Source: an uncultured Chitinophaga sp. (GTDB lineage: Bacteria > Bacteroidota > Bacteroidia > Cytophagales > Cyclobacteriaceae). From it: 64,000 nt of DNA. The notes beneath the pieces are model-generated. The model searched no databases. It saw nothing but the letters and a program-made list of their open reading frames with translations, and was not told where the DNA came from. The translations under genes and the position numbers were made by a program. The stretch's first letter is position 1, and each line of letters opens with the position of its first letter. Of this stretch, positions 13,361 to 62,424 are shown in pieces. The DNA lies in contig CABHOK010000003.1 of NCBI GenBank assembly GCA_902168205.1, forward strand, positions 1,116,001 through 1,180,000. Direction: 5' to 3'.

Positions 13361-14122
13361 ATGATCATTTCTATAGTCAACCATAAAGGCGGAACCGGTA
13401 AAACTACTACCACCCTGAATCTGGGCGCAGCACTTGCCAGGCGCGGATGTCGTGTGCTGTTGGTAGACCTTGATGCCCAAGGCAACCTGAGTTATTCATT
13501 GGGTGCGGCTGATGCTATATGTACGCTGAGTGATGTACTCTTTGAAGAAGCAGCGTTAAACGAGGCTCTTGTTTCCTGCGAAGGCATGCACCTGCTGCCA
13601 GGCAATATGAAACTTGCCGATGTGGAACTTGCACTCGCGAAGATTGAGGACCGCTACACCGTGCTGTCTGATATACTCCGGCCTGCCATCGTTCATTACG
13701 ACTTTATACTGGTAGACTGCCCACCGGCACTTTCACTTCTTACAGCCAATGCTTTAGCCGCATCGTATGGTATAATTATACCGCTGCAGCTCGAAGTGTT
13801 GTCGGTTCGCGGTCTTGATTTAATGCTGCAGTCTGTTGCAAGCATACAGCAAAGTCTTAATCCTGCTCTGAATGTGCTGGGTGTTTTGCCGGTACTGGTG
13901 GATAAGCGGAAGAACCTGAATGCAGAAATTGTATCCTATATACAGGATAATTACAAACTAAAAATATTCGACAGCTATATACGGGCGAATGTGAAGGCAT
14001 CAGAAGCACCATCGTTCGGTACGAGTGTTATTCACTATGCCCCGGCTTCTTCCAGTGCGCAGGACTATATAAGCTTTGCTGCTGAATTTGTAAGAACTAT
14101 ACCAACGTATACCGCTAAATAA
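13361..14122 (+). CDS. ParA/Soj-family ATPase of the chemosensory operon
   Basis: 253 residues. Deviant Walker A motif KGGTGKTTT (residues 9-17), VLLVDLDAQGNLS with the Walker A' aspartate, and FILVDCPPALSLLTANAL as Walker B. This is the ParA/MinD fold of small partition ATPases that lack an N-terminal DNA-binding domain. It is the first gene of the cluster, six bases before the soluble chemoreceptor gene, and no ParB gene is nearby. Known relatives in chemotaxis operons (ParC in Vibrio, PpfA in Rhodobacter) position polar or cytoplasmic chemosensory arrays, and the soluble receptor next door makes the PpfA-like role the better guess. This role is inferred from context. Confidence 0.85.
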   Translation: MIISIVNHKGGTGKTTTTLNLGAALARRGCRVLLVDLDAQGNLSYSLGAADAICTLSDVLFEEAALNEALVSCEGMHLLPGNMKLADVELALAKIEDRYTVLSDILRPAIVHYDFILVDCPPALSLLTANALAASYGIIIPLQLEVLSVRGLDLMLQSVASIQQSLNPALNVLGVLPVLVDKRKNLNAEIVSYIQDNYKLKIFDSYIRANVKASEAPSFGTSVIHYAPASSSAQDYISFAAEFVRTIPTYTAK

Positions 14123-14128
14123 ATCATT

Positions 14129-16495: not shown

Positions 16496-16576
16496 GTCGT
16501 AAAGTATACATCAGGCTGAATAGGCAAGAGTATATATATCAAACTATACAAATTAACAGATAACGATTAACGGACA

Positions 16577-17098
16577 ATGTATAACAATATGAGGCAGGAA
16601 GAGGAGCGAAATCAAACGAACCATGTACGCTATGTACAGATCGTAGTGTTTCGCCTGGGTGATGAGGAGTATGCGCTTAATATTGATCAGATTAAGGAAG
16701 TTGTTATTACGCCTTCTATAACACGTGTACCCCAAAAGCCTTCGTTTATAAAGGGCGTTGCCAATATCCGTGGAAATATTATCGCAATGCTGGACCTGGA
16801 AGAAAAATTCGGTCTTCGTAAAACCATCGATGAACACGCCGGCAATAATTTTACATTGGTCATCGATAGTGCAGAGTATAAAATGGGCGTGCTTGTAAAG
16901 GAAGTACCCAACACACTATCCATTGCAGAATCGTCTATTGAAGAAATCACATTGGCGGGTGATAGCGGTATAGAACAGTCGTACATCAAAGGTATAGTAA
17001 AACTGGAGAAGCGGCTGATTATCATGATTGACATCTTCAAAGTGTTGAGTCAATATGAAGAACAGCAGGTTTTCAAGAAACAAACAGCGCTTGTATGA
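16577..17098 (+). CDS. cheW: Chemotaxis coupling protein CheW
   Basis: 173 residues. A single CheW-like SH3-type beta-barrel: YVQIVVFRLGDEEYALNIDQIKEVV, then RVPQKPSFIKGVANIRGNIIAMLDLEEKFG, then a C-terminal IKGIVKLEKRLIIMIDIFKVL. It links the receptor tips to CheA. Possible starts at 16577 and 16589 leave the domain intact. It overlaps cheD by four bases, in line with one transcript. Confidence 0.93.
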   Translation: MYNNMRQEEERNQTNHVRYVQIVVFRLGDEEYALNIDQIKEVVITPSITRVPQKPSFIKGVANIRGNIIAMLDLEEKFGLRKTIDEHAGNNFTLVIDSAEYKMGVLVKEVPNTLSIAESSIEEITLAGDSGIEQSYIKGIVKLEKRLIIMIDIFKVLSQYEEQQVFKKQTALV

Positions 17099-17550
17099 TG
17101 TCGTGTGTGCTGGATATAAATGAAGTTGAGGTTTCGGTAAGGCCTGTAGAAATGGTATGTGTAGGGCTTGGTTCGTGCGTTGCTGTTTTTGTTACTGACA
17201 GAATACGGAAAGTATACGGAGGCGCACATATTCCGCTACCGTGTGGTGAGTTCACTGCCGGAATGAAATCGGCTGGACAGATTATTGACGAGTTGTTATA
17301 TAAGCTTCAGCGAAAAGGTGGTGATGTAAACAGGCTTCGCGCCAAAATAGCAGGCGGAGCAAATGTACTTGATCAGACCCTTGATATCGGGAAGCAAAAT
17401 GCAGAAAGCGTAATGGAGTTGCTGCACGCCCGGAAGATATATATAGCTGGTTCGGACCTGGGAGGAACGATATCGCGCTCGGTGCGCTTCAACAGCGTTA
17501 CACAAGAGCTGACTATTTCTACTTCCGAACAGGAGAAGTACATTATTTGA
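17095..17550 (+). CDS. cheD: Chemoreceptor glutamine deamidase CheD
   Basis: 151 residues. The active-site segment GLGSCVAVF has the catalytic Cys28, followed by GGAHIPLP with His45, and the conserved AKIAGGANVL and LHARKIYIAGSDLGGTISRSVRFN complete the CheD fold. It deamidates receptor glutamines to methylatable glutamates and usually binds CheC, for which a candidate lies at 20676. Translational overlap with cheW (17095-17098). Confidence 0.93.
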   Translation: MMSCVLDINEVEVSVRPVEMVCVGLGSCVAVFVTDRIRKVYGGAHIPLPCGEFTAGMKSAGQIIDELLYKLQRKGGDVNRLRAKIAGGANVLDQTLDIGKQNAESVMELLHARKIYIAGSDLGGTISRSVRFNSVTQELTISTSEQEKYII

Positions 17551-17568
17551 AGAAGTAAAAAAATCGGT

Positions 17569-17925
17569 ATGAATAAAAACGTGTTAATCGTAGACGACTC
17601 GCTGTATATGCGAACGATTATAAGAGATGCACTGCAACAAAATGGCTATCATATAGTGGGGCTTGCTGCCAACGGTGAGCAGGCTATTGATATGGCTTTT
17701 GAATTGAAACCCGACATTATAACCCTTGACAATATTCTTCCGGATATGATCGGAACGGATGTACTGAAAGTATACCGTGAAGAAGGACTTCGGTCGAAGG
17801 TAGTCATGATCAGTGCCGTGGGGCAGGAGTCGGTTATCCAGGAAGGAATAGCATTGGGAGCGAAGGCATATATCATTAAACCTTTTACAACGGAACATCT
17901 GTTGGAAACCGTTCAGGCACTTTAG
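17569..17925 (+). CDS. cheY: Single-domain response regulator CheY
   Basis: 118 residues, one receiver domain only. The acid pocket is Asp9-Asp10 (VLIVDDS), the phospho-acceptor Asp54 (ITLDNILPD), the switch Ser in MISAVG and the conserved Lys in IIKPF. It lies between cheD and cheB, which supports CheY rather than a stray regulator. With no flagellar motor in this phylum, its target is probably the gliding or type IV pilus machinery or another output (inference). Confidence 0.9.
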   Translation: MNKNVLIVDDSLYMRTIIRDALQQNGYHIVGLAANGEQAIDMAFELKPDIITLDNILPDMIGTDVLKVYREEGLRSKVVMISAVGQESVIQEGIALGAKAYIIKPFTTEHLLETVQAL

Positions 17926-17935
17926 ATCAACAGGA

Positions 17936-18976
17936 GTGGCGAGCAGGAAGATCAGGACGTTGCTTATTGAAGATTCCGGGTTTATGCGCATCATTCTTTC
18001 CGATCTTCTTCGCGGAGACGGAATGATTGAAGTAATGGCCACGGCTAGCAATGGTTTTGATGGTGTGTCAAAAGCAAGACAACTGAAACCAGATGTAATT
18101 ATTACCAATATGGTTATGCCTCAATACGATGGATTATATGTAGTACAAACATTAGTGAAAGAAATGTCTGTACCCATTATTGTATTGAGTTCATTACACC
18201 GCTGCGATCCTAAAATATATAGTGCGCTCCGGGAGGGAGCCTTTACTTTTTTAGGTAAACCAGCCAAGAGCGAGATCGAAAATGGCTATGCCCGCTTGTG
18301 TAAGGTGGTGCACGAAGCTTCGCAGGCCGATGTGCAATACAAAGAAGATGCGATCCTTCATTATAGTACAGCATCGCGTGTTGGTACGCCCCGTCCGCAG
18401 TTTGATATTATAGCGTTGGGGGTTTCCACGGGTGGACCTAAAACGATCGAATATATCGTAAGTAACCTGCCCGAATATATAGATGTACCCATACTGGTGG
18501 CGCAGCACATGCCCGATCTGTTTATAGAGTCGCTTGCCAACAGGCTCAACGATACATCGTCATGGCGTGTTTCTGTTTTGCAGGATGGAGAAGAGATGAA
18601 GCCCAATCGTATCTATTTTGCTCCAGGTACATCCAACGTTCGCATTGTTCGTAATGAGTCGAATACACCGGTGATTGAATTTGTTAACGATGTATATAAA
18701 GAATTCAACAATCCATCAGTAGACTGTTTGTTTGAATCTATAGCGGAGGTATACGGTCCACGGGCCCTCGCGGTAATTCTTACCGGTATGGGTAAAGATG
18801 GCGTGGCCGGTTTACAAAAGATAAAGGAAAGTGGCGGAGTAACCATTGCGCAGGATGAAAACTCTTCTGTTGTGTATGGTATGCCGCGTGCTGCATTTGA
18901 ATCCGGCGCAGCATTACATAAGTTATCGATTCAGGAAATTCCTGATTTCATTATACGGAAACTATATACGGCATGA
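17936..18976 (+). CDS. cheB: CheB methylesterase with a receiver domain lacking the phospho-acceptor Asp
   Basis: 346 residues, GTG start at 17936; no ATG upstream in this frame keeps the receiver fold and none nearby downstream would. The receiver (about 5-122) has the acidic pair in IEDSG, the Ser in VLSS and the Lys in LGKPAK, but the phospho-acceptor position reads DVIITNMVMP: Asn58, codon AAT at 18107-18109. The esterase domain (about 150-345) is complete: GVSTGGP (catalytic Ser), VAQHMP (His) and ILTGMGKDGV (Asp). The enzyme should remove receptor methyl esters but cannot be activated by phosphorylation of the usual Asp. It overlaps cheA by four bases (ATGA). Confidence 0.93.
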   Translation: MASRKIRTLLIEDSGFMRIILSDLLRGDGMIEVMATASNGFDGVSKARQLKPDVIITNMVMPQYDGLYVVQTLVKEMSVPIIVLSSLHRCDPKIYSALREGAFTFLGKPAKSEIENGYARLCKVVHEASQADVQYKEDAILHYSTASRVGTPRPQFDIIALGVSTGGPKTIEYIVSNLPEYIDVPILVAQHMPDLFIESLANRLNDTSSWRVSVLQDGEEMKPNRIYFAPGTSNVRIVRNESNTPVIEFVNDVYKEFNNPSVDCLFESIAEVYGPRALAVILTGMGKDGVAGLQKIKESGGVTIAQDENSSVVYGMPRAAFESGAALHKLSIQEIPDFIIRKLYTA

Positions 18977-20679
18977 GTACAAAAGAAGAAGAATACCGCG
19001 ATATATTTCTGACGGAAGCAATCGAGAACTTTAACGAGATCAACCGGCTCCTGATTGTTCTGGAGAAGAATCCTGAAGATATAAAATCGGTTCATGCGTT
19101 ATTTCGCATTACCCACACATTGAAAGGCAACGCTACGGGTATGGGCTTTGAACACATCGCCGAACTCGCCCATGTGCTGGAAGATCTTTTCGGGGCGGTG
19201 CGCGAAGGTAAAGTTATCATCAGCTCCGAGATGTTTGTGTCGGTTTATAAAGCTGCCGATATACTGAACGAATTGATAGATGCTGTTAAAAACCCGAGAG
19301 AAGTAAAATATAGGGGTATAAAAACCAAGCTGGAAGTAATGCTGCGTTCTGCGCTGGCAGAACGATCACAAAGTATAGATGAAACTGTACCCGCGGCCTC
19401 CGGTTACGAAAATGCAATAGCACCCGAACTGCTGGATATGCTGCAGAATGATGATGAAGATCATATTGATACAGCGACAAAGCTGTCGTTTTCGCATCTT
19501 GTGCAGGTGCCGGTTCAAAAGCTTGATAACCTGCTGAACCTGGTAGGAGAGTTGGTGATCGAACGCGATCGTATTATTGCATCGGGCATGCACAGTGCCA
19601 GCGAGTATTCGCGACTCAACCGTATATCATCCGATTTGCAATATTCGGTGATGGATGTGCGGCTCGTTCCCGTTGATTTTCTCTTCAATAAATTCCATCG
19701 CATTGTGCGCGATGCCGCCTCGAAGGAAGAGAAAAATGTTAGTCTGAAACTGAAAGGTACAGAGACTGAGATTGATCGAAATATACTCCAGGTAATCAGC
19801 GACTCTCTTATCCACCTGGTGCGTAATGCTATCGGACACGGTATAGAAAAACCGGAAGCACGGAAACAAAGTGGCAAACCAGAGTATGGAACCGTTACGC
19901 TTGAAGCCAGCAGTGAGTCTGATATCGTGATCATCGCTATACAGGATGATGGTGGAGGTATAGATGCCGCGCGCATTCGGAAAAGAGCTGTAGAGAAAGG
20001 TATACTTACACTGGCTGATGCATCTCAATGGAGCGATCGTGATATTATAATGCTGATCTTCGAGCCCGGCTTCTCCACAATGGATGAAGTTACCTCGCTT
20101 GCCGGCAGAGGTGTTGGAATGGATGTAGTGAAGAGGGCGCTGGATTCTATTGGTGGCACAGTACATATTGAAACGAAGGTGGGCGAGGGAACCACGTTCT
20201 TCCTGCGACTTCCCTCTTCCATGGCTGTTAAGGCAACGTTGTTGTTTGAGTTGGACAATGAGACATTTGCCATTCCGCTGTCGTATACCGAACGCGTAAT
20301 ATCCGTTTATAAATCAGATATACATACAGTAGCAAACGGGTTGATTACAGTTTATCAGGGCAGAACAATATCGCTGATATTTCTCAATGACCTGTTCCGG
20401 CAGGAGCGAAGTAGTATGGCAACACTTGAACGATTTCATCCGGAAGCCAAACTCGAGATTGTTGTTGTTTCCTTTAACGGCAGGTTGGTTGGTTTTATAG
20501 TTGACAAATTGCTGCAACAGAAAGAGATCATTGAAAAACCGCTGCAAAAACCTGCCGATGGTGTTTCATTTATCAGCGGAGTCACCATCCTGGGCAATGG
20601 CAAGGTATGCCTTGTGCTAAGCATCCCGGGTATATTAAATACAGTCAATCATACACAACATAATAAAATAAGTTTATGA
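18973..20679 (+). CDS. cheA: Chemotaxis histidine kinase CheA (no P2 domain)
   Basis: 568 residues. The N-terminal P1 phosphotransfer domain has His48 in RITHTLKGNATGMG. No CheY-binding P2 domain is visible: a linker of about 60 residues leads straight to the P3 dimerisation helices (VPVQKLDNLLNLVGELVIERDRI). P4 kinase motifs are HLVRNAIGHGIE (N box), QDDGGGID (G1) and LAGRGVGMDVVKRALDSIGG (G2). P5 is the CheW-like regulatory domain (about 430-560). It phosphorylates CheY; without P2, transfer probably depends on P1 docking. It is translationally coupled to cheB and to the cheC-like gene at 20676. Confidence 0.95.
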   Translation: MSTKEEEYRDIFLTEAIENFNEINRLLIVLEKNPEDIKSVHALFRITHTLKGNATGMGFEHIAELAHVLEDLFGAVREGKVIISSEMFVSVYKAADILNELIDAVKNPREVKYRGIKTKLEVMLRSALAERSQSIDETVPAASGYENAIAPELLDMLQNDDEDHIDTATKLSFSHLVQVPVQKLDNLLNLVGELVIERDRIIASGMHSASEYSRLNRISSDLQYSVMDVRLVPVDFLFNKFHRIVRDAASKEEKNVSLKLKGTETEIDRNILQVISDSLIHLVRNAIGHGIEKPEARKQSGKPEYGTVTLEASSESDIVIIAIQDDGGGIDAARIRKRAVEKGILTLADASQWSDRDIIMLIFEPGFSTMDEVTSLAGRGVGMDVVKRALDSIGGTVHIETKVGEGTTFFLRLPSSMAVKATLLFELDNETFAIPLSYTERVISVYKSDIHTVANGLITVYQGRTISLIFLNDLFRQERSSMATLERFHPEAKLEIVVVSFNGRLVGFIVDKLLQQKEIIEKPLQKPADGVSFISGVTILGNGKVCLVLSIPGILNTVNHTQHNKISL

Positions 20680-21290
20680 TCATACCGGACAGACTAAAAA
20701 CGGAATCTGGCGTACGTGTGCTGGAAGCATTCGAGAGCGGCTACATAAATGCAGCCCACTCGTTTTCCAAATTTATTGGTGCGGACATCGGTTATGTGAG
20801 AACGCATCAGGGGCTACATGTTGTGGCCGATGATGAAACCGAATACATGGCGCAGATTGGCAGGCATGATGCAAACTTGTTGGTTGCTACCGATGTGATT
20901 GGCGAAGTGTGTGGTAAAAGTTACCTGTTGTTAAATACACGCGAGCTCGATCAGCTCTCGCAGCGCGCATACGGCACCCATGATGCTGTGATGGATTTTA
21001 AGGAAGAGCTTGTGAAAGAACTTGATAACATTCTTTCGGCTTCCGTTATCTCGAAACTGTCCAATGCCTTGCATCTGAACATGTATGGCAATATCCCGAT
21101 GCTGGTAAATCCATTCAACTGCAATCTGAAGAACATGATCTACGATGATTTCGCAGAAGAAGCGGAGTCGGTATATATCAATGCCATTCATTTCACTTTT
21201 GATAAATATCCGGAACTGCGACCTTGCTTTATATGGGTGGTAGACCAGGATATATTTGACAGGATCGAATCGAAACCCGTACACTCCTGA
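20676..21290 (+). CDS. CheC/CheX-family CheY phosphatase-like protein
   Basis: 204 residues. One active-site helix resembling the CheC/CheX/FliY signature is visible: EELVKELDNILSASVISKL, with the E-x2-N core and, 23 residues after the Asn, the conserved Pro in NIPML. The usual Asp/Ser four positions before the Glu is Glu here. The last third (about 150-195) has a FAEEAESVYINAIHFTFD segment. Probable role: dephosphorylation of CheY-P and/or partner of CheD, whose gene is in the same operon. The start overlaps the cheA stop (ATGA). The family assignment rests on the motif and the location. Confidence 0.7.
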   Translation: MIIPDRLKTESGVRVLEAFESGYINAAHSFSKFIGADIGYVRTHQGLHVVADDETEYMAQIGRHDANLLVATDVIGEVCGKSYLLLNTRELDQLSQRAYGTHDAVMDFKEELVKELDNILSASVISKLSNALHLNMYGNIPMLVNPFNCNLKNMIYDDFAEEAESVYINAIHFTFDKYPELRPCFIWVVDQDIFDRIESKPVHS

Positions 21291-21355
21291 AGTATATATA
21301 GCGGTGATGTCCGATGTGAGAAAATCAACCGGGTGCGTGAGTAAATTGGTAATGT

Positions 21356-22201
21356 ATGAATGACAGACCTGGTAAACCTGTAGAATCTTTAACAGTTTCA
21401 GACGAAGAACTTCAGTCGCTAACCCAGGCAATCTTTCAACGGCATGGTATTGATTTTACCTGCTATGAACGGTTGTCGCTGAAGCGCAGGGTGATCCGTG
21501 TACTCGGAGTTTTTAATGTCGATTCCATACACGCTCTGTGGCGGCTGATACTCCGCGACAGAACTTTTATCTATACCTTCATGGATGAGGTTAGCGTTGG
21601 CCTTACCGCCATGTTCAGAGACCCTGTGCTCTGGAGAAAAATGCAATACCTGTTAAACAACGATCTCGTAAAAAAAAGTGAACTGGCTATATGGCATGCC
21701 GGCTGCTCATCAGGGGAAGAGATTTATACTTTCGGCATTGTGTTACGGGAGTCGGTATTCGCCAATAACGTTACTGCCTGGGCTACCGACATCAGCAAAC
21801 AAGCCATTGAACAGGCACAACGGGGTGGCTATCATGCATTGAAGTTCCCGGAGTATGAGCAAAATTACAAGGAGTTTAATCCGTTTGGTTCTTTAAAGCG
21901 ATACTCTACATCTGGTAAAGGCACGTTTCAAATGCACAGCGACCTGATACGACATGTATCATTTGAATATCATAACCTGATTACCGATCCGTTTCCTGTA
22001 AACCTTGATATTATTTTCTGCCGCAATGTTATGATCTATTTTGACAGCGGAGCCAAACTTAAACTACTGAAAAAGTTCTACGACTCGCTGAAGCCTGGCG
22101 GGCTTCTGATCATTGGCTTCTACGATGCGGTAATGCCGTTGATTGATCCGCATCAATTTGATGTACTGGATATAGAAGCAAAAATATTTGTAAGACTATA
22201 G
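21356..22201 (+). CDS. cheR: Chemoreceptor methyltransferase CheR
   Basis: 281 residues. The N-terminal helical domain (about 15-85) leads to the SAM-binding domain with IWHAGCSSGEEIYTFGI (motif I), WATDISKQAIEQAQRGGY (motif II) and IIFCRNVMIYFD (motif IV), the diagnostic CheR set. A C-terminal pentapeptide-binding extension is absent. It methylates glutamates of the soluble receptor at 14129, opposing CheB. Last gene of the cluster. Its 5' gap of 65 bp contains no terminator, so it is probably co-transcribed. Confidence 0.93.
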   Translation: MNDRPGKPVESLTVSDEELQSLTQAIFQRHGIDFTCYERLSLKRRVIRVLGVFNVDSIHALWRLILRDRTFIYTFMDEVSVGLTAMFRDPVLWRKMQYLLNNDLVKKSELAIWHAGCSSGEEIYTFGIVLRESVFANNVTAWATDISKQAIEQAQRGGYHALKFPEYEQNYKEFNPFGSLKRYSTSGKGTFQMHSDLIRHVSFEYHNLITDPFPVNLDIIFCRNVMIYFDSGAKLKLLKKFYDSLKPGGLLIIGFYDAVMPLIDPHQFDVLDIEAKIFVRL

Positions 22202-23320: not shown

Positions 23321-23742
23321 TCTGTTACGGGCGATGCCGCCACATAACATTCGCGTTCCGGATGCAGCAGCATTCCCCTCCTGATATACCATTCTAAGGG
23401 AAGGCCTCAGGACATCAGGAATTTCCTGACGCTTTCTAAGACATATCTGATAGCTTCACTGTCAGATCCGGATTTCCTTTTTCCTGTTGAAAACACGAAG
23501 GCTGCAGAAAAACAGCTTTCCCGTTATATTTTTAACTCCGGTAAGAAACACCTTACTCCGGAGCGCTTGGCGTTGTACTCTATTCAGTTCTAAATACTCT
23601 TCCACGAGCATGGAAAAGCCTTTTTCCAGGGTCATCATTCTGCTTATTCACCCGTTTGTCCTGATTTTTTAAAATCAGTTTTCTCCTGATTTATACCGCC
23701 CCCAGACCCGGCATCTTTGCTTCAACATAACACATACTGTAT
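23321..23742. other. 422-bp intergenic region with palindromes and promoter motif
   Basis: No convincing gene. Features: a near-perfect palindrome TCAGGAA-t-TTCCTGA (23415-23429); an imperfect hairpin TCCGGTAAG / CTTACTCCGGA (23537-23562); and, near the 3' end, the dyad promoter element described separately (23671-23719) that serves the Hpt gene. A 58-codon minus-strand frame (23462-23638) is weak and was not called. Confidence 0.5.
23671..23719 (+). promoter_or_regulatory. Dyad promoter element, site A (Hpt gene 23743)
   Basis: AAAATCAG (23671-23678), 7-nt spacer, CTGATT (23686-23691), 24-nt spacer, TTTG (23716-23719; -7 region CATCTTTG). The spacing is identical to four other sites in the window. 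An extra half-site CTGATTTT lies two bases upstream of AAAATCAG (23661-23668). ATG follows 23 nt after TTTG. Confidence 0.7.
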
Positions 23743-24087
23743 ATGAGGACCTTCAGAACTTCAACCGATTCAGCCCGAAGACCCCTTTTTATCGATTTCG
23801 ATGCTTACACAGACGGTGATCCTGAATTCAAAAAAGAGATAACCGACCTGATGATCGATAACCTTCAGGAAATGCAACAGGTATTGGGTGAAGCTACCAA
23901 GCAGAAAGATGTTGTACTCTTTCAGCGCGTTTGTCACAAGATAAAAGCTACGCTCGATATGTTGGAAGATCGCGAACTGCTCGACATCGTGCAGCAGTTA
24001 AAAGCCGATATCACCAACATTGAACAAGCTCAGGACCTTGACAGGGTCTGTGCAGAGATTATCATCAGTCTGCACGATAGCAAGTAA
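23743..24087 (+). CDS. Orphan Hpt-domain phosphotransfer protein
   Basis: 114 residues. Four-helix Hpt domain with the phospho-accepting His65 in FQRVCHKIKATLDML, preceded by FKKEITDLMIDNLQEMQQVL and followed by a helix ending at 110. No kinase or DNA-binding part. Such proteins carry phosphate from the receiver of a hybrid kinase to a response regulator. Three hybrid kinases follow at 25.3-39.2 kb, so it may serve them (inference). It has its own copy of the AAAATCAG-N7-CTGATT promoter, shared with the second Hpt gene at 61975. Confidence 0.85.
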   Translation: MRTFRTSTDSARRPLFIDFDAYTDGDPEFKKEITDLMIDNLQEMQQVLGEATKQKDVVLFQRVCHKIKATLDMLEDRELLDIVQQLKADITNIEQAQDLDRVCAEIIISLHDSK

Positions 24088-31590: not shown

Positions 31591-31639
31591 AAAATCAGCT
31601 TTTTCCTGATTCATAGCAGTATATATGTTTCCACCTTTG
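31591..31639 (+). promoter_or_regulatory. Dyad promoter element, site B (beta-helix protein 31678)
   Basis: AAAATCAG (31591-31598), 7-nt spacer, CTGATT (31606-31611), 24-nt spacer, TTTG (31636-31639; -7 region CACCTTTG). Start codon 38 nt downstream. Same spacing as sites A, C, D and E. Confidence 0.7.
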
Positions 31640-31677: not shown

Positions 31678-33471
31678 ATGATGAAACGATTTTTACTTCT
31701 TATCTATTTATTGATCCATCTTATTTTTAGTGTTCATGCACAGGTCAAAGTGGGGAATAACCCGACTACGATCGACCCCAACTCGTTGCTTGAACTTGAA
31801 AGTACCAACAAGGGATTACTTCCTCCGCGTGTTATCATTAATAACTTGTCTTCGGTATCTCCGCTTACTGGAACTGTACCGGCAGGGATGCTGGTATATA
31901 GCAGTGGGGGAGCGGTTGCTGATGGATATTATTATTGGAACGGTGGTCAATGGGTGCCGTTTATTACTTCGGGCGAACCGAGCCTTACTTCAAAAACAAC
32001 AACTTCCATTATTGCCAAGAGCGAAACCTTTGTGGTGGCGAGCAATGATATAACGCTGACCCTGCCGGCCGTTACTGCTGCAGACAATGGTCTCTCCATA
32101 ACCGTTAAGAACATTGGAACACATACCGATGAAGTAGATGTTATTCCCAACGGCTCTGCTACCATTGAGGGTTCCACGATATCGAAACATTTTCGATGGG
32201 TGGGGAAAACATATATAGCCATGAACGGCAACTGGATTATGAAAGGAAGTGAAGAAAGGGATGATAATGTGTTTGAAGTAAAACCCGGTGGAAGTTGGAC
32301 AACGATTGAAGAGATACTGGAGTTTCTGGATTTACACATGGTGGGGCCTTCGATCATTAAACTCGTAGGTGGTGATTATCCTATATCTTCTACGCAAACA
32401 ATAGACCTGCCGCATCCGCTCACGATTCAGGGAAGCTCGTACGGCACATCGTATCTTACGGCTGCCTCAGGTTTAGGTGGATCACCAATGTTTAGTTGTG
32501 TATCCGAAAGTTATTTCAAGATGCTGGCCTTTGATGCTACAACACTCGGTGGCTATGGATCAAATTCCGGTGATGTTGCGATACAATTGGTAACGGGTGG
32601 TGAATACTTCGAAGTAAAGGATTGCACATTTGACAGCTTTAACAAAGCAATCGCTGCCATCAGTAACGTTGAGTTGTGGGTGTTTGAAGTTGACATCACC
32701 AATGCTGTTGCAGCTGGTATAGAACTGGCTGCCGGTGGATCAAGCGGAGTTTCTTTCAAGATATCAGAGACGGACTTTATCGGTTGTGCGAAAGGTATAA
32801 ATTTCTTGTCGGGATCTGCTTCCGTAACTTCGGTGCTAAACTGTGGCTTCTACAATGCTTCTGGTGGTATAGGTATAAATTACGTACCAGGCTCATTTAC
32901 TTCTATCTCCAGTATGTTCATTACCAATAACACCTGGAACAACGTTGGTACCTTCATGAGCGGCTTTGATTTTTCACGCTCCGATGGCCGGGATGCAAAC
33001 GTGTTTATTCGTAACAACTCCGGTGGTCCGGATCAGAACCCGCACAGCAGGATAAATGTGAATAACAACAGTGCCACTACAACGGTAACAACAGCCGGAA
33101 CATGGTATAAAGCCAATTGGACAGCAGGCAATCAAACATCACTCACTACCAAATGGACAATTGCTACAAACCGGATTACGTATCAGCCTGTTAATAAAAG
33201 TGAAGGATGGGCCATCATCTCCGGCAATATAGCCGTGCCCAGCAACAACCGGACTATATCGATAGCCATTGTAAAAAACGGAGTGGTGGCAACACGATTT
33301 GGTGAAACTGATCTTCGCCTGACAACGGCTAACGATCCTTACCAGTTTGCTACGACCATTTACTTGACAGACATAGCACCCGGAGATTATTTTGAAATAT
33401 ACTGTACTTCAGCCAACAGTGGCGATGCGATTACCTTCCGCGATATACAGTGGTATACTGAAACAAAATAG
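31678..33471 (+). CDS. Exported protein with right-handed beta-helix region
   Basis: 597 residues; ATG ATG at 31678/31681. A signal peptide (KRFLLLIYLLIHLIFSVHAQ) is followed by the common Bacteroidota opening TIDPNSLLELESTNKGLLPPRV and YYWNGGQWVPF. Residues about 200-460 resemble a pectate-lyase-like parallel beta-helix (short strands such as FKMLAFDATTLGG, FEVKDCTFDSFNKAI, NVFIRNNSGG). The C-terminal 130 residues form a compact beta domain (WAIISGNIAVPSNNRTISIAIVKNG) that resembles phage-tail or C1q-like heads. No T9SS tail is evident. Possible surface fibre or polysaccharide-binding protein. It is the only non-signalling gene with the AAAATCAG-N7-CTGATT promoter, and it is separated by 31 bp from the next surface protein. 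Confidence 0.75.
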   Translation: MMKRFLLLIYLLIHLIFSVHAQVKVGNNPTTIDPNSLLELESTNKGLLPPRVIINNLSSVSPLTGTVPAGMLVYSSGGAVADGYYYWNGGQWVPFITSGEPSLTSKTTTSIIAKSETFVVASNDITLTLPAVTAADNGLSITVKNIGTHTDEVDVIPNGSATIEGSTISKHFRWVGKTYIAMNGNWIMKGSEERDDNVFEVKPGGSWTTIEEILEFLDLHMVGPSIIKLVGGDYPISSTQTIDLPHPLTIQGSSYGTSYLTAASGLGGSPMFSCVSESYFKMLAFDATTLGGYGSNSGDVAIQLVTGGEYFEVKDCTFDSFNKAIAAISNVELWVFEVDITNAVAAGIELAAGGSSGVSFKISETDFIGCAKGINFLSGSASVTSVLNCGFYNASGGIGINYVPGSFTSISSMFITNNTWNNVGTFMSGFDFSRSDGRDANVFIRNNSGGPDQNPHSRINVNNNSATTTVTTAGTWYKANWTAGNQTSLTTKWTIATNRITYQPVNKSEGWAIISGNIAVPSNNRTISIAIVKNGVVATRFGETDLRLTTANDPYQFATTIYLTDIAPGDYFEIYCTSANSGDAITFRDIQWYTETK

Positions 33472-56609: not shown

Positions 56610-59300
56610 ATGCGGATACATCATTGGCTTTGTATTTTGTTTTGTTTGGAGTTGTTGTTTTCCTGTAACCGGGCGAGCAGTAGTGGAAAACTCAGTGCAG
56701 AGTTTTCGTATGCCGTAATGGTTCCTGATATTGTGATTGTACATGCAGGTATGGCACTGTTTCAACCTGACTTTGAAGTTGAACGCATTACCGGTACTCA
56801 ACCTATATCTATACTGTTAGGTGCTTTTGTGTGCCTGTTGGTATTAAGCGCAGTTGTGATGGTGTTTGCACTTCGGAAAAGCCGGGCGTATCGCGAATTA
56901 AACAAACGCCACGAAGCATTGTTAATTACCAATAAAGAATTTGCTGCAGCTAACGAAGAATTGAAATATACCAACCAGAAGCTGGAAGATGCTCATGTAA
57001 AAATAGCAGAGCAGACACAAACGATACTTCGTCAGAAAGATGAACAACTTAACCGTGTGCTCGATTCTTCGCAGGATATAATCTGGTCGATCGATTTAAC
57101 GGGGGCCGGCAAACATTATATCAGCCGCTCTGCCACGCAGGTGCTGGGCGACAATGTTCGGGGAGAATTATTGATCGATGCTATATATTGGCAACACCTC
57201 GTGTTGGAGGAAGACTGGCCGTTAAAAGAAGAAGCGCTCCGAAATGTATCCCTCGATGGCTACGCAGAGTGTACGTATCGCATACGCACCGCTGATGATG
57301 GTTATCAATGGCTGTTCGAAAAAATGCACGTGGTGGATGATGAAAACGGAATGCCGTTACGACAGGAGGGGATCATTGTAGATATTACTAATCAAAAGAA
57401 GGCAGAGGAAATTATACTTCGCTATCAGCAGCAAATCGATATTATATTTTCCAACACTCAGGAAAATATAGTGCTGATGGATTTTACCGGAAAAGTTTTG
57501 TTGTTTAATAAAGCGTTTGAATACTTCGCGGAAGCTGTAACAGGCGTTCGGCCGGTTGTAGGAAAGTATATATGGGATATAACTACCAAAGATCGCAGGG
57601 AGGTTTCGCAGCGATTGTTCCAGGAAGCGCTTGAGGGTAAATTGATAAAGACCACGGCGGTGTTTTATATGCAGGATAATGCTATATATCATTCTGTTCG
57701 ATACGAGCCGATTATTAGCGATGGTAAAACTACGCATGTTGCCATTATAGCATCCGATATCACGCAATTGAAAGAACAGGAAAATATACTGCGCGAATCG
57801 GAAGCAAACCTGAAAGCTATATTTGATAACACCCGCGATTCTTTTACGTTGCTGTCTCCGGATTATACGATCATTGCTTTTAATAAAGCTAATTTTCAGA
57901 ATGTGCTGCTGCGTACCAACAAGGAACTGCGTACAGGTGTAAACCTGCTGGAGTATATAGATGAAGATCGCAGAAGTGCTTTTACCTATTTACTGGAACG
58001 TGTTGAGAATGGTGAGATGATTTCCTACGAAGCTAATCTTCAGAACGGAGGACTTGAAGCTGCGTGGTTTAAAATAACCATCAGTCAGGTACGATCGGCT
58101 GAAGGTAAACTCTTTGGTTATTGCATCGAAGCGCATGATATAAATGAGCAGAAGGAATTTGAAGGTACATTAACGGCAATAGCGCGCGAGCTGTCAAGCT
58201 TAATCGAGAATGCCAACGTGCCTATATTTGGCATTGATCAACATGGAAAGATAAACGAATGGAATCGTGTCTCAGCAGAACTCACAGGTTTTTCAAGAAC
58301 CGAAATGATCGGGCGTGACTGGATAACGAATTTACTCGAACCGGAATATCATGAAGTAGTAACAGCGATTATGAAAGATGCACTCAGCGGTGTACCCGTA
58401 AGTAATTTTGAATTGCCGGTGCTGAGTCGGAAGAAGCAGAAGATATCCTTGCTACTCAGTGTTTCACCACGGAAAGATGCTGAACATAAAATTGTTGGTG
58501 CAACGATTGTCGGTCAGAATATAACGGAGCTTATAGAGTATAAACAAAATCTGGAGCGTATGGTCTACGATCGCACGCGCGAGTTGAACGAGGCGTTGCA
58601 GAAGGAAAAGGAGCTTGTAGAGATGAAAAGCAAGTTTGTCTCCATCGCGTCCCACGAATTCCGTACACCGCTCTCTTCCATTTCACTGGCATCAGGTTTT
58701 ATCAAAAAGTACAAACAGAAGATTACACCGGAGGAAGTTGATAAACGATTGGACAACATAGAAAAGCAGGTGGGACACATGACGCATTTGCTGGACGATG
58801 TGCTGCTGATCGGAAAAACGGAAGCCGGAAAGCTGGTGGTACATCCATCGGAAGTAGATATTGCTGATACGTTTGAGCGGTTGAAAAACGAGATAGAGCA
58901 AAGTACCGGCAATACACATACTATACGGTTACATATCGATAGTATAGAAGGTAGCGTGAATACCGATGAGAAACTGATTCGTACCATGGTAATAAACCTG
59001 CTCACCAATGCTGTCAAGTTTTCTCCGGGTGCTTCATACGTTGATTTGTTTGTAACTGCAGACTATAACAAGCTTGCGATAGGTGTAAAGGATTATGGTA
59101 TAGGTATACCGGAGCAAGATATAAAAAATCTGTTCGAACCGTTTTACCGTGCAAGCAATGCTGCCGATGTGGAAGGTACCGGGCTTGGTCTTTCTATTAT
59201 TAAGAAAGCGCTGGACCTGCTCAGAGGTTATGTAGATATAAAGAGTGTAATCGGACAAGGTACAGAAATAACTATAGTAATTCCGTTGGAACATGCCTAA
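56610..59300 (+). CDS. Multi-PAS sensor histidine kinase
   Basis: 896 residues. The N-terminus has a lipoprotein-like leader (MRIHHWLCILFCLELLFSC) and a single membrane helix at about 67-88 (ISILLGAFVCLLVLSAVVMVFAL), with only about 45 residues between them. A coiled coil (95-145) leads to four PAS domains at about 145-265, 275-390, 395-520 and 525-655. Then HisKA with SKFVSIASHEFRTPLSSISLASG and HATPase with INLLTNAVKF, KDYGIGIPE and GTGLGLSIIKKAL. No receiver. It overlaps the CheY-like regulator gene by 8 bp and heads an operon with two response regulators, its likely targets. A strong PAS content suggests redox or small-ligand sensing in the cytoplasm. Confidence 0.9.
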   Translation: MRIHHWLCILFCLELLFSCNRASSSGKLSAEFSYAVMVPDIVIVHAGMALFQPDFEVERITGTQPISILLGAFVCLLVLSAVVMVFALRKSRAYRELNKRHEALLITNKEFAAANEELKYTNQKLEDAHVKIAEQTQTILRQKDEQLNRVLDSSQDIIWSIDLTGAGKHYISRSATQVLGDNVRGELLIDAIYWQHLVLEEDWPLKEEALRNVSLDGYAECTYRIRTADDGYQWLFEKMHVVDDENGMPLRQEGIIVDITNQKKAEEIILRYQQQIDIIFSNTQENIVLMDFTGKVLLFNKAFEYFAEAVTGVRPVVGKYIWDITTKDRREVSQRLFQEALEGKLIKTTAVFYMQDNAIYHSVRYEPIISDGKTTHVAIIASDITQLKEQENILRESEANLKAIFDNTRDSFTLLSPDYTIIAFNKANFQNVLLRTNKELRTGVNLLEYIDEDRRSAFTYLLERVENGEMISYEANLQNGGLEAAWFKITISQVRSAEGKLFGYCIEAHDINEQKEFEGTLTAIARELSSLIENANVPIFGIDQHGKINEWNRVSAELTGFSRTEMIGRDWITNLLEPEYHEVVTAIMKDALSGVPVSNFELPVLSRKKQKISLLLSVSPRKDAEHKIVGATIVGQNITELIEYKQNLERMVYDRTRELNEALQKEKELVEMKSKFVSIASHEFRTPLSSISLASGFIKKYKQKITPEEVDKRLDNIEKQVGHMTHLLDDVLLIGKTEAGKLVVHPSEVDIADTFERLKNEIEQSTGNTHTIRLHIDSIEGSVNTDEKLIRTMVINLLTNAVKFSPGASYVDLFVTADYNKLAIGVKDYGIGIPEQDIKNLFEPFYRASNAADVEGTGLGLSIIKKALDLLRGYVDIKSVIGQGTEITIVIPLEHA

Positions 59301-59661
59301 GAAAATTATGGTAGTAGAAGATACTCCTGACCTGCTGCAGCATGTAACAGATTTCCTCACGATGGAGGGATATGATGTAGAGCCTTGCTCGAATGGTCAT
59401 GATGCGTATCGGAAACTGGCATATAGTAAACCGGATCTGATCATCACGGATTTGCTAATGCCCAAGCTCGATGGATTTGCATTGATTGAAAAAATAAAAC
59501 AGGACAAGACTATGCAACATATACCGGTTGCAATTTTTTCGGCAAAGCCACCGCATGAAAACGAAGCGCGGGCATTGAGTCTCAATGTGCAGGCCTTTAT
59601 AAAGAAGCCGTGCTCGCTGGACGATCTGCATGAGATAGTAAAAAGTATACTGGATAAATAA
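59293..59661 (+). CDS. Single-domain response regulator
   Basis: 122 residues, one receiver domain. Acid pair in VVEDTPD, acceptor Asp53 in IITDLLMPKLDG, Ser in IFSAKP, Lys in FIKKPC. Overlaps the end of the PAS kinase gene, so it is most likely phosphorylated by it. No output domain, so it may pass phosphate to an Hpt protein or act by protein contact. Confidence 0.9.
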   Translation: MPKKIMVVEDTPDLLQHVTDFLTMEGYDVEPCSNGHDAYRKLAYSKPDLIITDLLMPKLDGFALIEKIKQDKTMQHIPVAIFSAKPPHENEARALSLNVQAFIKKPCSLDDLHEIVKSILDK

Positions 59662-59668
59662 GAAGATC

Positions 59669-60337
59669 ATGAGTGCTGTAAAAGTTATAGTTGTAGACGA
59701 TCACGGATTGGTGCGACAGGGTATCGTTTCGTTGTTACGTGAAAGTGGTGAAGTGGAAATCCTGAAAAGTGTAGATAGCGGAGAAGAAGCCGTGAACTAC
59801 GCTACGGAGCTTTCACCGGATATAGTTATTATGGATATTGTGATGAGAGGAATGACGGGTATAGAAGCCACGCGTTGGATTAAGGAACAAAACCCGCATG
59901 TAAAAGTTATACTGGTGTCAAGCGAAGTAAATAAGGATTTTATACGCGCAGGTCTTCGCAGCGGTATGGATGGCTATCTCAACAAGAGTACAACATCCGA
60001 TGTGTTGATGAAAGCTGTGCGCAGTGTAATGAAGGGAGAGAAATATTTTGGCACTGATATCACTTCGCTCGTGCTGGAAGAATTTTCATCACCACAAAAA
60101 TCCACGCGCGATAATGACCGGGGAGAAAAGCTGAAGGGCAGCGTACTCTCCAAACGCGAAGAAGAAGTACTCACGTTGATAGCCGAAGGAAAAAGTTTGA
60201 AACAGATCGGAGAAGAACTTTTTATCAGTGTGAAAACGGTGGAAACGCATAAACTTCATATCCAGGATAAACTCGGGCTCACCGGCACGGCACAGCTTGT
60301 GCGATATGCCCTGGAGCGCAAGGTAACGCGATACTAA
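59669..60337 (+). CDS. NarL/LuxR-type response regulator
   Basis: 222 residues. The receiver (about 4-120) has VVDDHGLVRQG, acceptor Asp56 in IVIMDIVMRGMTG and Lys in GYLNKST. The C-terminal LuxR helix-turn-helix (about 155-218) is KREEEVLTLIAEGKSLKQIGEELFISVKTVETHKLHIQDKL. Seven bases after the small regulator and in the same operon as the PAS kinase. It is the only dedicated DNA-binding response regulator in this island, and the next three transcription units all carry the AAAATCAG-N7-CTGATT promoter, so it is a candidate for the factor that reads it (inference). Confidence 0.92.
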   Translation: MSAVKVIVVDDHGLVRQGIVSLLRESGEVEILKSVDSGEEAVNYATELSPDIVIMDIVMRGMTGIEATRWIKEQNPHVKVILVSSEVNKDFIRAGLRSGMDGYLNKSTTSDVLMKAVRSVMKGEKYFGTDITSLVLEEFSSPQKSTRDNDRGEKLKGSVLSKREEEVLTLIAEGKSLKQIGEELFISVKTVETHKLHIQDKLGLTGTAQLVRYALERKVTRY

Positions 60338-60377
60338 GCTTTTCACGTAGGCTACATCAGTAATATCCTGATTTTGT

Positions 60378-60426
60378 AAAATCATTCTATTGCTGTCAGA
60401 TTTTAGGGTGCGCAATCAGACATTTG
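60378..60426 (+). promoter_or_regulatory. Dyad promoter element, site D (GAF gene 60451)
   Basis: AAAATCAT (60378-60385), 7-nt spacer, CTGTCA (60393-60398, degenerate second half-site), 24-nt spacer, TTTG (60423-60426; -7 region GACATTTG). A CTGATTTT half-site lies two bases upstream (60368-60375), as in site A. A second dyad AATCAG-N10-CTGATT (60414-60435) covers the expected transcription start. ATG is 24 nt after TTTG. Confidence 0.6.
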
Positions 60427-60450
60427 TTTCTGATTAACGCATATTAAACC

Positions 60451-60948
60451 ATGGCAACGCCCGACACCGATTTACTGGCAGGAGAAAAACGAAAGGGCTT
60501 TTTGTTTCATACGGATGCCAGTGTTTCCAACGAGCGTTTCTGGAAAGAGCTCGCACAGTTGTCCATCACCATCAGCCGTACAACTTCCGTGTCCATTTGT
60601 GTTTATGACAATACGGTGTTGCGCGTAACAGCATCAGCCGGTACTATACTTTCAACCGAACGCATCGGGTTATGGGAAGCATTGATACAGCATGAACAAT
60701 ATACCGAAGTTGAAGACACGTTGAAAGATGTAGTGTTCAAATTTGATTCACGTGTACTCGATCAGCCTGTTATTCGTTTTCTGGCGGGTATGCCCATCGT
60801 TAATGGTCAGGGAAGTCGCATCGGTATAATTGCTTTGTCTGACAGCAAGCCTCGTAAATTTTCAGGAGAGCAGATCCAATCGTTAAGCATCATCAGCCGT
60901 GTTATTGCGGTACATCTTGAAATGAAGAATCGCATTTCTGCAGTCTAA
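60451..60948 (+). CDS. GAF-domain signalling protein
   Basis: 165 residues. Most of the protein is one GAF domain: RFWKELAQLSITISRTTSVSICVYDNTVLRVTASAG, then IRFLAGMPIVNGQGSRIGIIALSDSKPRKFSGEQIQSL, and a C-terminal helix. No output domain. It probably binds a small molecule or haem and works through partners such as the kinase at 61065. It has its own promoter copy (site D), and another lies behind it (site E). Confidence 0.85.
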   Translation: MATPDTDLLAGEKRKGFLFHTDASVSNERFWKELAQLSITISRTTSVSICVYDNTVLRVTASAGTILSTERIGLWEALIQHEQYTEVEDTLKDVVFKFDSRVLDQPVIRFLAGMPIVNGQGSRIGIIALSDSKPRKFSGEQIQSLSIISRVIAVHLEMKNRISAV

Positions 60949-60997
60949 GGATTTTACTGAGGAGATTTACTGAACAAATCTGCGTCCTTATTTTTTC

Positions 60998-61046
60998 AAA
61001 ATCAGCATCACACGGATTCAAGTCTACACATTGTTATAGAATTTTG
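60998..61046 (+). promoter_or_regulatory. Dyad promoter element, site E (histidine kinase 61065)
   Basis: AAAATCAG (60998-61005), 7-nt spacer, CGGATT (61013-61018, one mismatch), 24-nt spacer, TTTG (61043-61046; -7 region GAATTTTG). Start codons at 61065 (18 nt after) and 61089 (42 nt after). Confidence 0.65.
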
Positions 61047-61064
61047 ACGCATCAGTTTACAGTT

Positions 61065-61814
61065 ATGATACAAGTCAATTTACAAACAATGGGAGAACAG
61101 AAGCGCACCGATACATCAATAGCACAAGAGCTTGCAAAAGCTAAAAATGTTATTGATAAATTTTTGTACGGCTGTTCTCATACCATGCGTGGACCATTGA
61201 AATCTATTTCAGGTCTTATAAAACTTTTGCAGAATCCGGAAGCAACAGAAGATCCTTACAAACATCTTGAGCTTATCCAGAAGACGGTTAATAAAATGGA
61301 AACCATTCTGAATGACCTTGAGCAGTTCCTGGTGAACTCACGAAGAGATCTTGTTATTGAATCGGTGTCGATGTCCAAAACGATTGATCTTATACTCGAG
61401 CGCTATAGCAGAGAGGCTGAAAGTAAGAACATCCGTTTTTCGAAAAGTATAACGCAAACAGTTCCGTTGTTCACGGATGTGGAGCGTCTCAATCTTATCC
61501 TGATACAGCTCATCTCGAATGCGCTGGTGTTTAATGATTCCGAGAAGGCAGACAAGCACATCGATATATTTGTGCGCGTTAACGAAAACGGATGTCATAT
61601 TAAGGTATTGGACAATGGTATCGGTATGTCGTCCGACATTCAGAAGAATATATTTCAACTTTTCTTCCGCGGAGCGCAACAGTCGCAAGGTGCAGGCATA
61701 GGACTGTATGTAGTAAATGAAGTGCTGCGAAAAATGGGCGGCAGCATTACCGTTACGTCAGAGGAAGGATGTGGTTCAAGCTTCTTCGTGTGGATTCCCA
61801 ACCTCAAATCGTAA
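61065..61814 (+). CDS. Small soluble histidine kinase
   Basis: 249 residues from ATG 61065; ATG 61089 (MGEQKRTDTS) is an equally plausible start and gives a leader length closer to site C. No membrane helix. HisKA-like helices with the His box YGCSHTMRGPLKSISGLIKLL, then HATPase with IQLISNALVF (N box), LDNGIGMS (G1) and GAGIGLYVVNEVL (G2), ending SFFVWIPNL. Without a sensor domain it depends on partners; the GAF protein upstream is a candidate. It is flanked on both sides by promoter copies and followed by the Hpt gene at 61975. Confidence 0.85.
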   Translation: MIQVNLQTMGEQKRTDTSIAQELAKAKNVIDKFLYGCSHTMRGPLKSISGLIKLLQNPEATEDPYKHLELIQKTVNKMETILNDLEQFLVNSRRDLVIESVSMSKTIDLILERYSREAESKNIRFSKSITQTVPLFTDVERLNLILIQLISNALVFNDSEKADKHIDIFVRVNENGCHIKVLDNGIGMSSDIQKNIFQLFFRGAQQSQGAGIGLYVVNEVLRKMGGSITVTSEEGCGSSFFVWIPNLKS

Positions 61815-61884
61815 TGCCATCTAAGTGTTCTACGTATTTTCTAGGGAAAATCCTTAAGATATGGAGGAGCTCTTGATCTCGGTA

Positions 61885-61933
61885 AAAATCAGCTTGTCAC
61901 TGATTTTTTAGATGTTTTTTCATTCCACTTTTG
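61885..61933 (+). promoter_or_regulatory. Dyad promoter element, site C (Hpt gene 61975)
   Basis: AAAATCAG (61885-61892), 7-nt spacer, CTGATT (61900-61905), 24-nt spacer, TTTG (61930-61933; -7 region CACTTTTG). Start codon 41 nt downstream. Confidence 0.7.
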
Positions 61934-61974: not shown

Positions 61975-62424
61975 ATGAGCGCGAACAGATCCATTAACCC
62001 AGCATTCTACAATAATAAGCAGACATTCGTAGAGTTATCTGTTCATGGCCGGGATGTTATGAATAAACCGAAGGCTGTGGGCCGTTATTTCGATCACGAC
62101 AAGTTTGATAAGCTCACTGGTGGTTATGACAAGATACAGGCGGAACTGATCGAAGCGTTCTTGGAATTTACACCTGCGCTGCTGGAAGAACTTCGCACCA
62201 TTGCTATGGCCGAGAACGTTGCTGATGTGGCGCGTATACTCCATAAACTGAAATCGTCAACATCTTTGTTGTGTTCAGACTCGCTATACTCTGAGATTAT
62301 ACATCTGGAAGAAAATGCAAACCATGTAAGTGATCCTGACTATAAAAGCCGGATCGCTGCGCTCATTACTTCGCACGAAGTATTGATGGAAGAAACCGAG
62401 ACCATTCTTAAAAAACTGACGTAA
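61975..62424 (+). CDS. Hpt-domain phosphotransfer protein
   Basis: 149 residues. An N-terminal 40-residue extension is followed by an Hpt four-helix bundle with phospho-accepting His90 in VARILHKLKSSTSLLCS, preceded by KIQAELIEAFLEFTPALLEEL. It should relay phosphate between hybrid kinases and a regulator. Its promoter is of the same type as that of the other orphan Hpt gene (23743). It precedes the GAF-PAS sensor by 27 bp and is probably co-transcribed with it. Confidence 0.87.
   Translation: MSANRSINPAFYNNKQTFVELSVHGRDVMNKPKAVGRYFDHDKFDKLTGGYDKIQAELIEAFLEFTPALLEELRTIAMAENVADVARILHKLKSSTSLLCSDSLYSEIIHLEENANHVSDPDYKSRIAALITSHEVLMEETETILKKLT

Follow-up and report, generated by a model that had tools for sequence, protein, structure and literature searches.

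Housekeeping promoters of the Bacteroidota carry a TTTG or TTG box at -33. The usual site of class II activators lies near -43, and the lux box, an inverted repeat of about 20 bp, is centered near -42, over the -35 region. Few Bacteroidota two-component regulators have, to our knowledge, a known operator. According to three papers, the -7 consensus of the phylum is TAnnTTTG (Bayley et al. 2000, as cited in PMC6414381), the NarL/FixJ family regulator DegU recognizes inverted repeats (PMC9263151), and PorXY-SigP of Porphyromonas gingivalis controls type IX secretion genes via an ECF sigma factor (PMC4800418).

We analyzed a stretch of 64,000 nucleotides (C3:1116001-1180000; the window) from a genome of 7.30 Mb in 20 contigs. 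An initial annotation had proposed five promoters here that share a 49-bp layout: an inverted repeat of AATCAG and CTGATT half-sites spaced by 7 nt (the dyad), followed after exactly 24 nt by the TTTG of a -7 box. When the sequence was reread, the coordinates of all five sites and both spacers were correct. With their third half-sites, the promoters are as follows:

23661..23719, + strand, promoter 1: third half-site CTGATT at 23661-23666, AATCAG at 23673-23678, CTGATT at 23686-23691, and CATCTTTG ending at 23719
31591..31639, + strand, promoter 2: AAAATCAG-N7-CTGATT-N24-TTTG (CACCTTTG); a clear third half-site is absent
60368..60426, + strand, promoter 3: third half-site CTGATT at 60368-60373, degenerate AATCAT-N7-CTGTCA from 60380, and GACATTTG
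60987..61046, + strand, promoter 4: third half-site CTTATT (one mismatch), AATCAG-N7-CGGATT from 61000, and GAATTTTG
61885..61933, + strand, promoter 5: AAAATCAG-N7-CTGATT-N24-TTTG (CACTTTTG)

The sites at 23671, 31591, and 61885 are exact in both halves and in TTTG, the site at 60998 has one mismatch in its right half, and the site at 60378 is degenerate. We accepted 60378 despite its weakness because three orthologous loci, L132, L133, and L134 (at 10715), preserve its register. Another dyad at 60353, 25 bp upstream of 60378 and better by eye, was rejected as the promoter-phased site: its left half, with 1 mismatch to AATCAG in the window, is degraded in the orthologs, with 2 mismatches in L132 and 3 each in L133 and L134. 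The initial annotation was silent on the third half-site, as it was on the regulator gene described below. This half-site, CTGAT, lies mostly 12 to 13 nt upstream of AATCAG and is exact in 26 of 43 collected sites, compared with 0.57 in shuffles; the 8 promoters of this genome include just 3 exact copies. The possibility of a complete second dimer farther upstream was considered and set aside; since the base counts at -25 to -20 show at most a weak trend toward AATCAG, we restrict the claim to the third half-site.

The proposed targets of the five promoters are the genes that they precede:

23743..24087, + strand, 114-aa protein that falls below the Pfam Hpt model; proposed target of promoter 1
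31678..33471, + strand, 597-aa protein with a signal-peptide-like N terminus by eye; proposed target of promoter 2
60451..60948, + strand, GAF-domain protein (PF01590, 2.2e-07); proposed target of promoter 3
61065..61814, + strand, small histidine kinase (HisKA and HATPase_c; Pfam finds no sensor domain); proposed target of promoter 4
61975..62424, + strand, Hpt-domain protein (PF01627, 4.2e-06); proposed target of promoter 5

Pfam bore out the earlier identification of the Hpt gene at 61975, the GAF gene, and the small histidine kinase, but not that of 23743 as a second Hpt gene; the "beta-helix" label given to 31678 is unsupported because Pfam gives no match. Promoter 1 has orthologous copies in five same-genus genomes, G001 to G005 (L102, L087, L088, L086, and L090), promoter 2 has a copy in G004 (L094), and promoters 4 and 5 both have orthologous copies in L095, L103, and L109. 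This recurrence before orthologs, together with the genome scan, supports the earlier idea of a small regulon of signaling and surface genes.

Across the genome, the dyad by itself is only weakly enriched and occurs at close to chance frequency. At N7 there are 5 exact dyads, and all other spacings between 0 and 30 nt, 30 in total, give 24; allowing up to one mismatch raises the N7 count to 36, compared with 28 at N8. Of the 36 (3 of which, at window positions 18929, 60355, and 61000, were placed by coordinates and the other 33 by scan), 25 fall within mechanical reading frames, leaving 11 intergenic. As a genome-wide regulon the dyad alone was rejected, its N7 count being near the N8 control and 25 of its 36 matches falling in reading frames. 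Five of the 24 exact dyads at other spacings are copies of one repeat near contig ends. The 29-bp inverted repeat AATCAGTACGAC...GTCGTACTGATT occurs in the window's genome (G000) at C7:15-43, C11:114-142, C11:527791-527819, C14:114-142, and C13:57189-57217, and is probably the border of a repeated element, four of the five copies being near contig ends.

The initial annotation had named a scan of this genome and its relatives as the check on its pattern. The scan agreed with it: of the 11 intergenic dyads, 7 have TTTG on one strand exactly N24 past the dyad (p ~5e-11, from a TTTG density hand-derived from a 0.8-Mb sample), whereas this is rare in coding DNA, with 2 of the 25 in-frame dyads. 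The 11 intergenic dyads had been picked blind to TTTG, and their combination with N24-TTTG is far from chance. Counting the degenerate 60378, the total for this genome is eight promoters, of which the window contains five. The other three are as follows:

C2:98583, before a PAS histidine kinase
C2:531757, before a receiver-PAS protein
C3:543673, before a signal-peptide-like protein without a Pfam match

A sequence-only model, R1, was built from 43 sites, after matches in L149 and L151 that lie inside kinase reading frames had been dropped from 45; the eight promoters are among its training rows. R1 gives 10 matches in this genome, namely, the eight promoters, a dyad at C20:74510, and the 60353 dyad read on its reverse strand, and its scan yielded no promoters here beyond the eight. 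The exact dyad at G000:C20:74510-74565 is conserved at G001:C109:19164-19219, with TTAG at N24 in both genomes, and the gene after it encodes a small protein without a Pfam match. A second conserved exact dyad (G000:C2:694285-694331 and G001:C239:9863-9909) has TTTA at N24 and no frame start within about 165 nt downstream.

Promoters 3 to 5 follow a gene for a response regulator, which we call RR-A:

56610..59300, + strand, PAS histidine kinase with HisKA, HATPase_c, and PAS folds; apparently in a single operon with RR-A
59293..59661, + strand, stand-alone receiver protein, between the kinase and RR-A
59669..60337, + strand, RR-A, NarL/FixJ-type response regulator (Response_reg and GerE); proposed binder of the sites

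Both RR-A domains score above the cutoff (PF00072, 1e-26; PF00196, 2.6e-19). Its residues D10, D11, D56, and K106, which we take to be the acidic pocket, the phospho-acceptor Asp, and the Lys, are invariant across 14 aligned regulators. A profile of six RR-A orthologs matches VraR at 6.5e-46, and the closest solved chains, those of VraR (5hev, 7ve6, and 4gvp), share with RR-A the combination of receiver and GerE domains. We assign RR-A to the NarL/FixJ family and propose a new operator for it; it would differ from other NarL/FixJ regulators in the operator sequence, the extra half-site, and the Bacteroidota promoter context.

The position of the sites makes RR-A their likely binder. In 16 of the 24 loci that match best (L132 to L155), one of the three top-scoring sites lies 20 to 330 nt past the regulator stop, versus 1 of 56 loci with distant response regulators; without the five same-genus loci, the count is 11 of 19. 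Five of these 11 (L146, L147, L148, L152, and L154) are weak, scoring about as the best place in shuffled copies, and because their scores are low it is position, not score, that is informative there. Eight of the 24 loci have no top-three site beside the regulator (L139, L141, L142, L144, L145, L150, L153, and L155); in some of them, similar sequence was seen by eye and left uncounted. The spacing is kept at sites near RR-A homologs in other genera.

The proposed target of promoter 4 recurs as well. A homolog of the small kinase with at least 28% identity is present within about 1.1 kb after the regulator in 16 of 23 loci (L132 to L154), at 48% identity in Chryseolinea lacunae and 36 to 39% in five Fulvivirga loci. 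Loci of the Fulvivirga type also have a second site 1.5 to 2 kb past the start of the regulator gene (L147 at 12008, L149 at 11956, and L151 at 11562), before a frame that reads by eye as PorP/SprF-like, with a protein of some 1750 residues encoded after it. This second promoter may tie the pathway to cell-surface functions.

Within the genus, matches with at most one mismatch over the dyad and TTTG occur in five of six genomes, many of them before orthologous genes; two such matches look coding, one in G002 (Parachryseolinea silvisoli) and one in G001. RR-A orthologs are 95% identical in G001, 84% in G005, 83% in G004 (Ohtaekwangia koreensis DSM 25262), 59% in G002, and 57% in G003 (Dawidia soli). 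The sixth genome, G006, has neither RR-A (matches of 29 to 36% identity only) nor the sites. In G002 and G003, the site that adjoins RR-A precedes the ortholog of 23743; synteny differs and the adjacency stays. Outside the genus, there are 0 to 4 pattern matches per genome, in 33 of 85 genera overall, a count that is uninformative because the reversed-pattern control, which is lower, is unfair, the words being common here (523 versus 59).

Across 98 genomes, including that of the window, an RR-A homolog (E of 1e-55 or better) is present in 11, a strong R1 match (E <1e-5) in 9, and both in 8 (hypergeometric 9e-9; the 1e-5 cutoff was set after the list had been seen), a co-occurrence that is partly circular because same-genus sites gave the weights of R1, which was also built from other-genus loci. 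Without the seven genomes of the genus, strong R1 matches occur in 3 of 91, RR-A in 5 of 91, and both in 2 (~0.007, by hand). The third non-genus genome with a match, G068, was discounted: its exact match is coding, being contained in a 583-aa frame of the opposite strand. Among the 11 genomes with a homolog, G039, G042, and G050 have no R1 match below 1e-5. Sites in G039, G021, and G030, whose loci have no 60-mer in common with those used for training, all have N24 and CA, with TTTA in G030; the G039 site lies about 200 nt after RR-A and has N24 and CACCTTTG, and those of G021 and G030 are located away from RR-A. G013 has three R1 matches, the best at 8.8e-5 and the others at 0.0012 and 0.0053. 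They are located at C1:517851-517911, C1:516677-516737, and C2:208559-208619. In the best (L221), TTTG stands at N24 and the frame that follows begins like a signal peptide.

The -7 and -33 boxes set these promoters apart from the standard Bacteroidota form. CAnnTTTG occurs in five of the eight promoters and GAnnTTTG in three, so that the earlier reading of the -7 box as (C/G)AnnTTTG extends to all eight, including the three outside the window that were new to it. In a 0.8-Mb background sample (131 TTTG located 15 to 60 nt before 308 other starts), the counts are TA 27, AA 15, GA 12, and CA 3. TA is thus the commonest NAnnTTTG (27 of 57), and (C/G)A in eight of eight is unusual because the background has 15 of 57 (Fisher ~1e-4). 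Over the 43 collected sites, the counts are CA 33, GA 8, and AA 2, a tally that is partly circular because many of these sites were found with weights covering those columns. The second half-site occupies the -33 position, as had been proposed, with CTGATT there in place of TTTG or TTG. Compared with the TAnnTTTG promoter cited in PMC6414381, the present ones retain the TTTG of the -7 box and the short distance to the start codon, but the first -7 base is C or G in all eight and a half-site stands at -33.

We consider it probable, at roughly 0.7, that these are activator-dependent promoters of an RR-A two-component feedback module, read by RNA polymerase with its usual sigma factor. A phosphorylated RR-A dimer would bind AATCAG-N7-CTGATT, and the further CTGAT about 12 to 13 nt upstream, perhaps part of a second dimer, would assist at many sites. 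The distance between dyad and TTTG is fixed at N24; if transcription starts, as predicted, about 7 nt after TTTG, the dyad center would lie about 43 bp before the start, as for a class II activator. Because the dyad sits at the place of the -33 box, RR-A would contact RNA polymerase carrying the usual sigma factor, and because the -7 box lacks its first T, the promoter is expected to be weak without the regulator. RR-A would in this way turn on partners in its own pathway (the sensorless kinase, Hpt, and GAF proteins) and some surface proteins, forming a feedback or relay. The arrangement would resemble the lux box and class II activation in having an inverted repeat of about 20 bp near -42, overlapping -35. 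It is unlike the lux box in its half-sites and in that it adjoins a two-component regulator rather than an acyl-homoserine lactone receptor.

RR-A might instead bind the sites and repress, or activate some genes and repress others. The adjacency and the co-occurrence would leave room for this, as they indicate who binds and not the sign. We nevertheless regard it as unlikely, given that the dyad precedes the -7 box and sits where a class II activator would, and that a -7 box off the commonest form in eight of eight promoters fits a promoter needing help.

Paralogs of RR-A offered a further comparison. RR-B, 49 to 52% identical to RR-A, is followed 147 to 231 nt downstream by a promoter, CTGATTTnnnAAAATCCTCnTTTnnCTAAAGG, found once per genome in G000 to G005 and not in G006 (G000:C3:1611684-1611715 in L289; also L288 and L290 to L293). 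It leads to another small kinase; RR-B loci, too, have a small-kinase homolog (38 to 47%). The pattern, CTGATTT-N3-AAAATCCTC...CTAAAGG, matches these sites perfectly by design, because it was written from them, and no other occurrence was found in G000 to G005 with up to 3 mismatches. Its upstream part is common to the RR-A operator and its right half is different, and in six orthologs the A of its -7 box is preceded, by eye, by G, A, or C and never by T. RR-B and its variant promoter look like a second private regulator-promoter pair, and private operators for each regulator would be expected to give the pattern seen at RR-B. The diverged operator of this paralog, together with the symmetric half-sites and the extra upstream half-site, favors a DNA-binding dimer. 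In the RR-C-type paralogs (L126 to L129, L128 being a shortened locus), no convincing site was found. In L130 (the G002:C7:1210296 locus), a regulator paralog is followed by AATCAG-N6-CTGATT and TTTA, a spacing variant by eye. A comparison of recognition helices with operators yielded a merely suggestive result, and 8 of 36 entries gave no helix by the pattern used. A broader proposal, that the paralogous response regulators of this clade each have a private downstream promoter driving a sensorless kinase, with co-diverged operators (AATCAG-N7-CTGATT for RR-A, AATCCTC...CTAAAGG for RR-B) and with (C/G)AnnTTTG positively kept to make RNA polymerase wholly dependent on the regulator, is one that we put forward tentatively and would not yet bet on.

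The initial annotation had left the choice between activator-dependent promoters and an alternative sigma factor, which would read CTGATT as -35 and (C/G)AnnTTTG as -10. The invariant spacing and a -7 box unlike the genome background would suit such a factor. However, the half-sites of the upstream element are symmetric, with a third copy often present farther upstream, the recurrent neighbor is a NarL/LuxR-type response regulator, and RR-B has a variant of its own. By eye, one primary-type sigma gene was seen, in L139 only, about 3 kb before RR-A, and L139 has no site. The activator half of the earlier proposal is supported because a plausible activator gene is the recurrent neighbor; the sigma half gained no positive support, nor does the main reading require such a factor, and we judge it improbable. 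PorXY-SigP (PMC4800418) is likewise a case of two-component control of Bacteroidota surface functions, but it works via an ECF sigma factor, for which a different motif is proposed, whereas RR-A has its own GerE DNA-binding domain.

It is improbable that RR-A is a mere neighbor and the AATCAG dyads are bound by a different regulator, whether RR-B or something unrelated. RR-B has the same presence and absence as RR-A within the genus, where adjacency and the variant motif alone separate the two, and its operator is related; the R1 matches of G013 occur without an RR-A homolog at 1e-55. RR-B adjoins its own distinct promoter, however, and AATCAG-N7-CTGATT sites follow RR-A despite differing synteny. 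It is scarcely credible that the dyads act as RNA hairpins or as terminators for the genes upstream, or that they match by chance: 61885 is a perfect stem followed by T and the dyad by itself is close to chance across the genome, but the distance to TTTG is fixed, the sites are conserved upstream of orthologs, and no covariation was found over 43 sites (76.7% of cells paired versus 76.1% in shuffles), as expected because the dyad would be DNA read by a protein.

In the open-access PMC literature, we found no description of the motif, of Bacteroidetes LuxR-family sites, or of Cytophagales response regulator regulons; print beyond it may differ. If the broader proposal on paralogous regulators holds, the sites would represent a promoter grammar for Bacteroidota two-component systems of which we found no description. 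The candidate regulator is accompanied by a short list of targets, an exact rule for spacing, and a paralog whose operator has diverged, which makes binding specificity, the role of the first -7 base, and feedback via the sensorless kinase directly testable. The type strain Ohtaekwangia koreensis DSM 25262 has counterparts. Elsewhere in the window, 13361-22201 holds, by eye, a ParA-like gene followed by an apparent chemotaxis cluster with CheW, CheD, CheY, CheB, CheA, and CheR-like frames.
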